DNA from: Aurantimonas coralicida DSM 14790 | GTDB taxonomy: Bacteria > Pseudomonadota > Alphaproteobacteria > Rhizobiales > Rhizobiaceae | DNA length: 64,000 nucleotides | Direction of reading: 5' to 3' | Assembly: GCF_000421645.1 (NCBI RefSeq) | Contig: NZ_ATXK01000003.1 | Coordinates: 124,001 to 188,000 of the forward strand | Shown: positions 21,970 through 33,562 of the stretch, piece after piece | Layout: the number at the start of each line of letters is the position of its first letter | Position numbering within the stretch: position 1 is the first letter of the stretch | The notes under the pieces: model-generated | Seen by the model: the letters and a program-made list of their open reading frames with translations, nothing else | Told to the model about the DNA's origin: nothing | Databases searched by the model: none | Made by a program: the position numbers and the translations under genes

Positions 21970-22797
21970 TCAGGTGATGCGCTGGATGCTTGCGGCGATC
22001 TCGTCGCGGTCGAAGACGCGCTTCCAGTCGTCGCGCATCAGCATCGGCTTGCCGAATTCGATGGCCTTGTTGCAGGCGTCGGAGAACACGCCGTCGACCT
22101 CGTCGAAGATCACCGCGCCGAGGATGTTCATGTGGCCGAGCAGGAAGTCGCGGGCGCAATCATGCGGCACGCCCTTCTTGACCACTTCGTCCATGGCTTC
22201 GCGCATGACCACCAGCAGCGAGGCGCAGACCGTCTCCGACAGGCCCGGCTCCAGATAGGCCATCTGCTCGACGGTCACCTGGTAGGTGCGGGCCACCGGC
22301 GCGTAGATGGCGCGGGCGACCTTGTCGCCGATCTCGTAATGCTCCTGCGGGCCCTGCATCAGCGCGTTGACGACGCCCTGCTGGGCCGCGACGCCGCCGA
22401 AATGGTCCTTGCGGCCGGCCTCGGTCTCTTCGTTGTGGAAGATCGGCGGATGGCAGGGATGGGTGACGAAATAGGTGATGTCGGCCCGCTCCGGGAGATG
22501 GCCGGCGAAGGGCGCCGCGGCATCGAGCACGACGACGATGGTGCCCGGCGCGACCTTCGGAACCACCAGTGACGCGACCTTGCCGATCACCGTGTCCGGT
22601 ACGGCGAGGATCACCACGTCGGCGCCGTCCAGTCCGGTCTCCTGGTCGACGCAATCGACGCCGATCGCATCCTTCAGGCGCTCCTGGCCCTTCGGGTCGA
22701 CCTCGATATGGCGGACGTCGAAATCCGATTTCGCCAGATTGCGGGAAAGACGGACACCCATTTTGCCGCCTGCGCCGAACAGCGCCACAGTGGTCAT
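21970..22797 (-). CDS. apnO: D-apionate oxidoisomerase
   Basis: Cytoplasmic NAD-dependent enzyme of 275 residues. It begins with a Rossmann motif (VALFGAGGKMG) and belongs to the phosphogluconate dehydrogenase-like superfamily. In the D-apiose pathway ApnO oxidises D-apionate and moves its hydroxymethyl group to give 3-oxo-isoapionate. The assignment rests on length, fold and neighbours: kinase oiaK divergent, with apsD, apnL and a RuBisCO-like protein close by. THPCHPPIFHNEE and YLEPGLSETVC are likely active-site segments. A GGAGGAG ribosome site lies upstream of the ATG. It is transcribed alone, away from oiaK, from a promoter region carrying the GGTATGATGAG motif, and ends at the strong terminator. 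Confidence 0.82.
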   Translation of the reverse strand: MTTVALFGAGGKMGVRLSRNLAKSDFDVRHIEVDPKGQERLKDAIGVDCVDQETGLDGADVVILAVPDTVIGKVASLVVPKVAPGTIVVVLDAAAPFAGHLPERADITYFVTHPCHPPIFHNEETEAGRKDHFGGVAAQQGVVNALMQGPQEHYEIGDKVARAIYAPVARTYQVTVEQMAYLEPGLSETVCASLLVVMREAMDEVVKKGVPHDCARDFLLGHMNILGAVIFDEVDGVFSDACNKAIEFGKPMLMRDDWKRVFDRDEIAASIQRIT

Positions 22798-22839
22798 TGC
22801 CTACACTCCTCCGAGGTCCGACGGGACCTTTCCTAAACT

Positions 22840-22850
22840 GGTATGATGAG
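22840..22850 (+). promoter_or_regulatory. Candidate GntR operator, apnO/oiaK divergent promoter
   Basis: GGTATGATGAG within CTAAACTGGTATGATGAG, in the short space between apnO (start 22797) and oiaK. The identical 11 bases recur at 32269-32279 in the other divergent promoter of the pathway. It contains a TGGTAT half-site of the kind used by FadR-subfamily GntR regulators. The GntR gene at 24299-25045 is the natural candidate. Confidence 0.65.
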
Positions 22851-22903
22851 ATAATAATAGGACCGAAATGTCAACGCCCGCCACGGGCCTTCGAGGTAGC
22901 TTC

Positions 22904-32173: not shown

Positions 32174-32268
32174 GAAAGGCTCCTCCCGATCATTCGTGGC
32201 ACCCGGTGCGGATGCCCTCCTCCCTAGATCGGCCCGAAGCTTGAGAGATCGTCATTACTATGTCAACA

Positions 32269-32279
32269 GGTATGATGAG
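32269..32279 (+). promoter_or_regulatory. Candidate GntR operator, transporter/RuBisCO-like divergent promoter
   Basis: GGTATGATGAG within ATGTCAACAGGTATGATGAG, 35 bases before the RuBisCO-like start and about 95 bases before the SBP start on the other strand. It is identical to the 22840-22850 site, so one regulator can control both divergons. Confidence 0.65.
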
Positions 32280-32314
32280 TATTTGAGATGGCGTGCGACA
32301 AGAAGGATAATGCG

Positions 32315-33562
32315 ATGGCGGACGACATGATCAGGGTGACCTATCGCATCGAATGCGCCGGCGACGTCGAGGCGATGGCCGCCAAGATCGCGTCGGACCA
32401 GTCGACCGGCACCTTCACCGAACTGCCGACAGAGACCGAGGCCGTGCGCGCCCGCTGCGCCGCCCGCGTCGAGCAGGTCACGCCGCTCGAGCCGCTGGCC
32501 GTCCCGTCGATTCCCGATCCGGCAGGGCAGGGCCCGTATCACCGCGCCGACGTCACCATTGCCTATCCGCTGGAGGCCGTCGGCACCGACATCGCCGCGC
32601 TGATGACGATCACCATCGGCGGCGTCTTCGCGGTCAAGGGCGTCACCGGCATCCGCGTGATGGACATCGACCTGCCGCAGGCCTGGGCGTGCCATCCCGG
32701 GCCGCAATTCGGCATCGCCGGCTCGCGCCGGCTGATGGGCGTGGAGGCGGGACCGATGATCGCCTCGATCATCAAGCCGTCGCTGGGGCTTCTGCCGGAC
32801 GAGACCGCCGCGGTCGTCGCCGATCTCTGCGCCGCCGGCGTCGATTTCATCAAGGACGACGAGAAGCTGATGAGCCCGGCCTATTCGCCGCTCGAGCAGC
32901 GCATCGCGGCCATCATGCCGGTGATCCGGGATCACGAGCAGAAGACCGGCAAGCGGGTGATGTACGCCTTCGGCATTTCGTCGGCCGATCCCGACACGAT
33001 GATGCGCAACCATGACCGCGTGGTCGAGGCCGGCGGCAACGCCGCCGTCGTCAACATCAACTCCATCGGCTATGGCGGCATGAGCTTCCTGCGCAAGCGC
33101 TCGGCGCTGTGCCTGCATGCCCACCGTAATGGCTGGGACATCCTGACCCGCCATCCGGGGCTGGGTCTGGAATTCCGGGCCTATCAGAAGATCTGGCGGC
33201 TGCTCGGCGTCGACCAGTTCCAGATCAACGGCATCCAGGCGAAATACTGGGAGCCGGACGAGAGCTTCGTGCGCTCCTTCGAAGACTGCATGACGCCGAT
33301 CTTCTCCGAGGCCGACCGGCCGCTGCCCGTCGTCTGTTCGGGCCAGTGGGGCGGGCAGGCGGTCGAGACCTATGAGCGCACCGGCCGCACGCTCGACCTG
33401 ATGTATCTCGGCGGTGGCGGCATCCATGGCCATCCGATGGGGCCGGCCGCCGGCGTGCGCGCCATCCGCCAGGCCTGGGACGCGGCGGCCGAGGGCCTGT
33501 CGCTGGCCAACAAGGCGCGGGACCATCCCGAACTGGCCGCTTCGCTGACCAAATGGGGCTGA
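32315..33562 (+). CDS. RuBisCO-like protein: 3-oxo-isoapionate-4-phosphate decarboxylase or transcarboxylase/hydrolase (OiaX/OiaT)
   Basis: RuBisCO large-subunit homologue of 415 residues. The carbamate/metal motif GVDFIKDDE (K201, D203, E204 in spinach numbering) and the Lys in SIIKPSLGL (K175) are kept. So are LHAHRNGW (H294, R295) and GGGIHGHPMGPAAG. The loop that holds H327 reads DQFQING, and K177 is Ser, so it is not a CO2-fixing enzyme. In oxidative D-apiose pathways such proteins either decarboxylate 3-oxo-isoapionate-4-phosphate (OiaX) or convert it by transcarboxylation and hydrolysis (OiaT); I cannot decide which. The ATG at 32315 has AAGGA seven bases upstream and is preferred to the ATG at 32288. 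Confidence 0.83.
   Translation: MADDMIRVTYRIECAGDVEAMAAKIASDQSTGTFTELPTETEAVRARCAARVEQVTPLEPLAVPSIPDPAGQGPYHRADVTIAYPLEAVGTDIAALMTITIGGVFAVKGVTGIRVMDIDLPQAWACHPGPQFGIAGSRRLMGVEAGPMIASIIKPSLGLLPDETAAVVADLCAAGVDFIKDDEKLMSPAYSPLEQRIAAIMPVIRDHEQKTGKRVMYAFGISSADPDTMMRNHDRVVEAGGNAAVVNINSIGYGGMSFLRKRSALCLHAHRNGWDILTRHPGLGLEFRAYQKIWRLLGVDQFQINGIQAKYWEPDESFVRSFEDCMTPIFSEADRPLPVVCSGQWGGQAVETYERTGRTLDLMYLGGGGIHGHPMGPAAGVRAIRQAWDAAAEGLSLANKARDHPELAASLTKWG

Follow-up and report, generated by a model that had tools for sequence, protein, structure and literature searches.

The oxidative D-apiose pathway was reportedly published by Carter et al. 2018, and the order of reactions used below follows that account. 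The product of OiaX is L-erythrulose-1-phosphate, from which the isomerases LerI and DerI are needed to reach D-erythrose-4-phosphate; the products of OiaT are 3-phosphoglycerate and glycolate. The sugar D-apiose is found in plant cell walls (PMC6302742, PMC11747546), and the RuBisCO-like proteins (RLPs) of D-apiose pathways were described as being of a decarboxylase and a transcarboxylase/hydrolase kind, the RLP of Agrobacterium radiobacter K84 being reported as a decarboxylase and X. autotrophicus as having an OiaT-type pathway (PMC6302742). Rhodobacteraceae strain LCG007, a marine isolate, was reported to have the same five enzymes as the cluster described below and to grow on D-apiose as sole carbon source (PMC11747546). 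RLPs are also treated in PMC10176493. According to another report, an RLP-containing D-hamamelose pathway is present in Ochrobactrum anthropi, whose rlp gene sits among the hamamelose genes and performs the last step, the pathway products being 3-phosphoglycerate and glycolate; the same source places an rlp gene of R. etli next to ribose transport genes (PMC8914248).

The stretch of DNA analysed here (the window) is 64,000 nucleotides long and comes from Aurantimonas coralicida DSM 14790. All ten open reading frames located by the first-pass annotation at 21970-33562 are intact, and their assignment to families was confirmed by Pfam and NCBIfam profile scores (Table 1). The proposal that every step from uptake through the C-C cleavage enzyme is present in the cluster was borne out by the gene set, and so was the absence of an OiaC decarboxylase, as no OiaC-named NCBIfam model matched among the ten ORFs. 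The minus strand carries, in this order, the genes of the solute-binding protein (SBP), the DUF2291 protein, the double ATPase, the permease, the Gfo/Idh dehydrogenase, the 598-residue protein and the GntR regulator; the last, of NanR type, is downstream of the importer, dehydrogenase and lactonase genes. The ApnO gene is likewise on the minus strand; with the OiaK and RLP genes on the plus strand, there are two divergent promoters. An AAGGA stretch at 32303-32307 stands 7 bases before the ATG at 32315, so the RLP probably starts at 32315 and not at 32288. In our judgement the cluster is very probably a regulon for D-apiose uptake and oxidative catabolism through the OiaX branch, with LerI and DerI encoded at a second locus. 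Gene content, family scores, clade membership, operator count and conservation, and DerI co-occurrence are direct results of the analysis; the individual reactions, the ligand, the mode of regulation and the naming of LerI are inferred.

Table 1. Predicted genes and putative operators of the cluster (positions in the window).
Feature	Position	Strand	Basis
ApnO-like D-apionate oxidoisomerase, 275 aa	21970..22797	-	PF16896, PDB 5t57, R. etli p42f orthologue
Putative operator CTGGTATGATGAG, ApnO/OiaK divergent promoter	22838..22850	+	exact MWGGTATGATGAG match; conserved upstream of orthologues
OiaK-like 3-oxo-isoapionate kinase, DUF1537 family, 468 aa	22868..24274	+	NF042436, PF07005, PF17042
NanR-type GntR/FCD regulator, 248 aa	24299..25045	-	NF003011 298 bits, cut-off 260
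ApnL-like D-apionate lactonase, 598 aa	25050..26846	-	NF049900 616 bits
ApsD-like D-apiose dehydrogenase (Gfo/Idh/MocA), 339 aa	26843..27862	-	PDB 5uhw, R. etli orthologue
RbsC-type permease, 356 aa	27875..28945	-	PF02653 (BPD_transp_2) 146 bits
RbsA-type double ATPase, 519 aa	28945..30504	-	two ABC_tran stretches, 193 bits
DUF2291 periplasmic lipoprotein, 227 aa	30506..31189	-	PF10054 161 bits
Importer solute-binding protein (SBP), 314 aa	31229..32173	-	PDB 5ibq/4ry0, R. etli p42f SBP
Putative operator CAGGTATGATGAG, SBP/RLP divergent promoter	32267..32279	+	second exact genomic match to MWGGTATGATGAG
OiaX-family RuBisCO-like protein (RLP), predicted 3-oxo-isoapionate-4-phosphate decarboxylase	32288..33562	+	NF042437, clade

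Scanning genome contigs with the RLP as query gave 429 relatives, the best 80 of which were analysed for neighbours within at most 10 kb, some contigs being shorter. Scored by identity thresholds, these best 80 of 429 loci included OiaK (68), ApnO (65), GntR (64), ApsD (53), ApnL (48), the SBP (39), each other importer gene (38), DerI (23) and LerI (20); because the gene set recurs across them, it is not a chance neighbourhood. Going by their titles, all but four of the 80 (L027, L035, L061 and L065) belong to Alphaproteobacteria. The locus of Aurantimonas manganoxydans (L002), an organism close to the source organism, has the same ten genes at 94-99% identity. A TRAP transporter (DctP, DctQ, DctM) adjoins ApnO at L054:14850-17683, and DctP relatives with 60-86% identity were found in the flanks of eight other OiaX loci (L003, L005, L032, L047, L050, L051, L055 and L069). 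By identity thresholds, ApsD, ApnL and the SBP are absent at four of these nine TRAP loci (L032, L047, L050 and L054), and the TRAP-bearing OiaX loci are possibly a variant that imports D-apionate directly.

The enzymes upstream of the RLP were assigned with different degrees of closeness. The ApsD-like protein matched PDB 5uhw, which presumably holds an apiose-related ligand, with 465 bits (next best sequence, 111 bits) and the Pfam family GFO_IDH_MocA with 94 bits; ApnO matched PF16896 (PGDH_C) with 236 bits and PDB 5t57 with 429 bits. For neither protein was a curated NCBIfam model matched over its cut-off, and it is by identity to the R. etli cluster (67.1% for ApsD, 68.4% for ApnO on p42f) that both are orthologues of the OiaX-branch enzymes. 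OiaK scored 467 bits with NF042436, which is under the curated equivalog cut-off of 700, and this was the best of three kinase models matched, the next giving 161 bits. ApnL is likewise under the equivalog cut-off of its model, NF049900 (cut-off 750), the sole NCBIfam model matched by the 598-residue protein, for which searches of Pfam and, up to E 0.01, of PDB found no match. Among 385 genomes drawn from the class, 14 had an ApnL match, and in 13 of these, the window genome included, it was under the cut-off.

The first-pass annotation left it open whether the RLP is OiaX or OiaT. The RLP scored 800 bits with NF042437 (OiaX), above the curated cut-off of 700, and in a 26-row tree a branch supported at 100/100 separated the 21 OiaX rows from all others. 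The RLPs of loci L126, L127 and L136 and PDB 3nwr were placed among these others; the first three clustered together (support 99/97), and 3nwr was placed apart from them, near the outgroup RuBisCO, although the tool warned that these two long branches were possibly joined falsely. The OiaX rows of the tree are the window and 20 of 66 recovered loci, and the characterised OiaX of K84 and OiaT of X. autotrophicus are absent from it; the window RLP lies outside the clade of L126, which stands for OiaT here as a candidate. At L126, which holds an apiose cluster, the RLP shares 43.8% identity with that of the window and scored 453 bits with the OiaX model. A search of the L126 genome found not a single RpiB-family match, as would suit a route without DerI; the L126 RLP may be an OiaT. 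An RLP related to that of L126 is also found beside other genes.

Residue comparison was based on the window and the 66 of 80 loci from which an ORF was recovered (L004 was among those lost). Sixteen columns show no variation across the 67 OiaX rows and a consistent difference from them in L126, L127 and 3nwr. In four of these columns the RLP has D37, G112, Q310 and Q312, facing E, N, H and H of the RuBisCO encoded in the same genome, at positions which we take to be E60, N123, H325 and H327 in spinach numbering, and in this it departs from a true RuBisCO; the lysines of KPSLGL, FIKDDE and the loop-6 stretches are retained. The RuBisCO large-subunit-like protein of the same genome (486 residues) is encoded separately from the RLP (L129, C1:822284-823270). 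Model score, tree and the DerI co-occurrence given below favour an RLP of the OiaX (decarboxylase) kind over OiaT.

Two further loci concern RLPs of the intermediate class. A genome of the same genus has an intermediate-class second RLP (452 bits) besides OiaX (G570:C1:112078-113301). On a plasmid of R. etli NXC12 (L138:11986-15448), an intermediate-class RLP adjoins a four-carbon acid sugar kinase and a 3-oxoacyl-ACP-type reductase, with no ApnO or ApnL annotated nearby in a plasmid gene table that is incomplete; this neighbourhood suggests that the intermediate class may cover more than one pathway.

As the RLP is over the OiaX cut-off and inside the OiaX clade, LerI and DerI should be required to process its expected product, and the earlier suggestion that the pathway must end with the RLP is not borne out. 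The cluster appears complete from uptake to C-C cleavage but alone would not reach central metabolism. Candidates for both isomerases are present in the genome, though away from the window cluster: they adjoin each other on contig C5 (C5:259954-261161) and are the genome's only RpiB-family gene and a second triose-phosphate isomerase (TIM) paralogue. The DerI candidate scored 268 bits with NF051858, above the cut-off of 240. NCBIfam calls the LerI candidate a plain triose-phosphate isomerase (409 bits, cut-off 293); as it stands beside DerI and is 66.9% identical to the gene in the R. etli cluster, we take it to be LerI. Five other genes stand at the C5 locus (L084:1836-9953), which encode a DeoR-type regulator, a GlpD-like dehydrogenase, a PfkB-type kinase, a RibH-type lumazine synthase and a UgpC-like ATPase. 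The genes eryH and eryI were reported in erythritol catabolism (PMC10190533); since no FGGY kinase was found among the seven ORFs scanned at the C5 locus, this is possibly something other than a standard erythritol operon.

Among 151 genomes of the family, the window genome included, OiaX was over the cut-off in 27 and DerI in 45. DerI was present in all 27 OiaX-positive genomes vs 18 of the 124 OiaX-negative ones (Fisher p 3e-18, kinship not corrected), and the latter figure indicates that DerI serves other pathways too. Where the only high-scoring RLP was intermediate (379-454 bits), DerI was present in 1 of 17 family genomes, a count that excludes four further genomes also having OiaX. In the class draw of 385 genomes, DerI was over the cut-off in two and OiaX in one, the window genome being among both. 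For the second TIM, we searched OiaX genomes only, namely 49 of the 56 with loci lacking nearby LerI/DerI (six metagenome bins and L021 were left out, other bins being retained). A TIM paralogue 57-95% identical to LerI was found in all 49, at an identity of at least 66% in 47 of them, and the same 49 genomes also hold another TIM that is 33-42% identical to LerI.

If the RLP were instead a transcarboxylase/hydrolase of the OiaT kind, it would be the last step and LerI and DerI would not be needed. Such a reading would suit a window cluster without LerI or DerI, in a genome that offers for these roles just the pair on C5, and an RLP of another clade does occur in the otherwise equivalent apiose cluster of L126, from the genome without an RpiB-family match. 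The window RLP, however, passes the OiaX cut-off that the L126 RLP falls well short of, the two are in separate clades, and DerI, found in every family genome with OiaX, is nearly missing from those with intermediate RLPs alone. On these three grounds an OiaT function for the RLP was rejected, and we regard it as very improbable.

A comparable, low probability is given to the cluster degrading another branched sugar such as D-hamamelose. The OiaK and ApnL scores under their cut-offs would allow it, OiaX-type RLPs occur in several loci named Ochrobactrum/Brucella (e.g. L066), and it is among hamamelose genes that the rlp of O. anthropi was reported (PMC8914248). However, the products reported for that pathway need no C4 isomerases (PMC8914248), whereas DerI accompanies OiaX in all 27 OiaX-positive genomes of the family, and the SBP and ApsD closely match the R. 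etli p42f cluster; hamamelose was judged unlikely as a substrate because of this co-occurrence and likeness.

Both divergent promoters contain a 13-base motif, CWGGTATGATGAG. The pattern MWGGTATGATGAG has exactly two matches in the 4.6-Mb genome, one in each divergent promoter of the cluster, and its reversed control pattern has 0 matches in the genome; that the two exact matches genome-wide are both in cluster promoters supports one regulon. Within one mismatch, GGTATGATGA was found upstream of 41/66 OiaX, 38/59 OiaK, 40/52 ApnO, 21/36 SBP, 19/60 GntR and 10/52 ApsD orthologues, against 0, 1, 0, 1, 0 and 0, respectively, with one shuffle per region. A site in a divergent pair was counted for both genes, and the upstream regions used came from 66/80 OiaX, 59/68 OiaK, 52/65 ApnO and 36/39 SBP orthologues. 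In the window alone, with two mismatches allowed, there are two matches, which is not above chance though both are exact; the case for the operator rests on the genome-wide count and conservation. The earlier suggestion of a single regulon is supported by both, and the NanR-type regulator would control the window cluster through the two GGTATGATGA operators.

The isomerase locus may be regulated separately. GGTATGATGA was found within one mismatch upstream of 0/22 DerI and 3/17 LerI genes. The C5 isomerase locus has no copy of the motif with at most one mismatch, and around its promoter none turned up even with two, which counts against the proposed reading; the best C5 site has two mismatches and is some 5 kb from the isomerase genes, and the four C5 sites within three mismatches are no more than expected by chance. 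Elsewhere in the genome are four one-mismatch sites, and by eye one of them was placed just beyond where a LysR-like ORF ends and another within a TRAP small-permease-like ORF; no extra regulon members are claimed from these four sites, two of which were inspected.

The SBP matched PDB 5ibq with 502 bits and 4ry0 with 501 bits, and Pfam Peripla_BP_4 with 201 bits. It is 78.8% identical to the SBP of R. etli p42f, which contains exactly the matched 4ry0/5ibq stretch. In PDB, 4ry0 bears the name of a ribose transporter binding protein, and 5ibq is entered as a probable ribose SBP; we assume that the structure 5ibq has D-apiose as a ligand. The fold predicted from sequence alone was poor (pLDDT 41.8) and that from a 26-row alignment was good (pLDDT 87.2), and D-apiose was named by none among the 50 PDB matches listed for this fold. 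The name of probable ribose SBP is also given to 5IBQ in PMC8112048. A ribose system whose importer is for D-ribose, with the RLP as an unrelated neighbour, would agree with the title of 4ry0 and with RbsB as the best NCBIfam match of the SBP (168 bits), but that score is far under the cut-off of 337, the importer is co-located with ApsD, ApnL, ApnO, OiaK and OiaX at many loci, and importer and apiose enzyme genes have an operator in common, for which reasons ribose was judged a most unlikely substrate. D-apiose would be the ligand of the SBP, and the assignment of the whole cluster to D-apiose, as first proposed, is supported by homology and synteny.

In the D-apiose pathway proposed here, the ABC importer would bring D-apiose into the cell; ApsD would oxidise it to a lactone, which ApnL would open to give D-apionate. 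ApnO would then oxidise D-apionate and move the hydroxymethyl group, giving 3-oxo-isoapionate, which OiaK would phosphorylate; the RuBisCO-like OiaX is predicted to decarboxylate the phosphorylated compound to L-erythrulose-1-phosphate, and the LerI and DerI candidates on C5 may convert this into D-erythrose-4-phosphate. Beyond this genome, it seems to us rather probable, with less assurance than for the cluster itself, that the OiaX decarboxylases form a clade with fixed active-site replacements (E to D, N to G, and H-x-H to Q-x-Q) when set against RuBisCO and the remaining RLPs of the comparison, and that in many genomes the apiose route is tied to C4-sugar-phosphate isomerases at a separately regulated locus. 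If so, one regulon would supply the end of another regulon's pathway, and a pathway split over two loci would be missed by an operon-only reading. The results also point to which of the two RLP chemistries the lineage uses, and the residue differences and the operator are concrete handles on RLP function and on the regulon. Because D-apiose occurs in plant cell walls, the cluster marks bacteria likely to use this sugar.

One of the closest known counterparts is found on plasmid p42f of R. etli CFN 42 (L137, NC_007766), which has orthologues of all ten window genes along with a TIM and an RpiB-family gene, taken here as LerI and DerI. The proteins concerned are 40.6 to 78.8% identical to their counterparts from the window and C5; GGTAT[AG]ATGA motifs occur there at two sites in the stretch scanned. 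Unlike the window, R. etli has LerI and DerI inside its cluster, a different gene order and a plasmid location. With the described OiaX-branch pathway, the window shares the importer, ApsD, ApnL, ApnO, OiaK and OiaX families in one cluster, but LerI and DerI are elsewhere here, and OiaK and ApnL are under their equivalog cut-offs. The OiaT-type pathway (X. autotrophicus; candidate L126) has the same upstream enzymes, and differs in the clade of the candidate's RLP. Strain LCG007, another organism and known here by description, is alike in its five enzymes as named by its authors (PMC11747546). The type of pathway has thus already been described, and the cluster of A. coralicida is a well-supported member of its decarboxylase branch, split over two loci.
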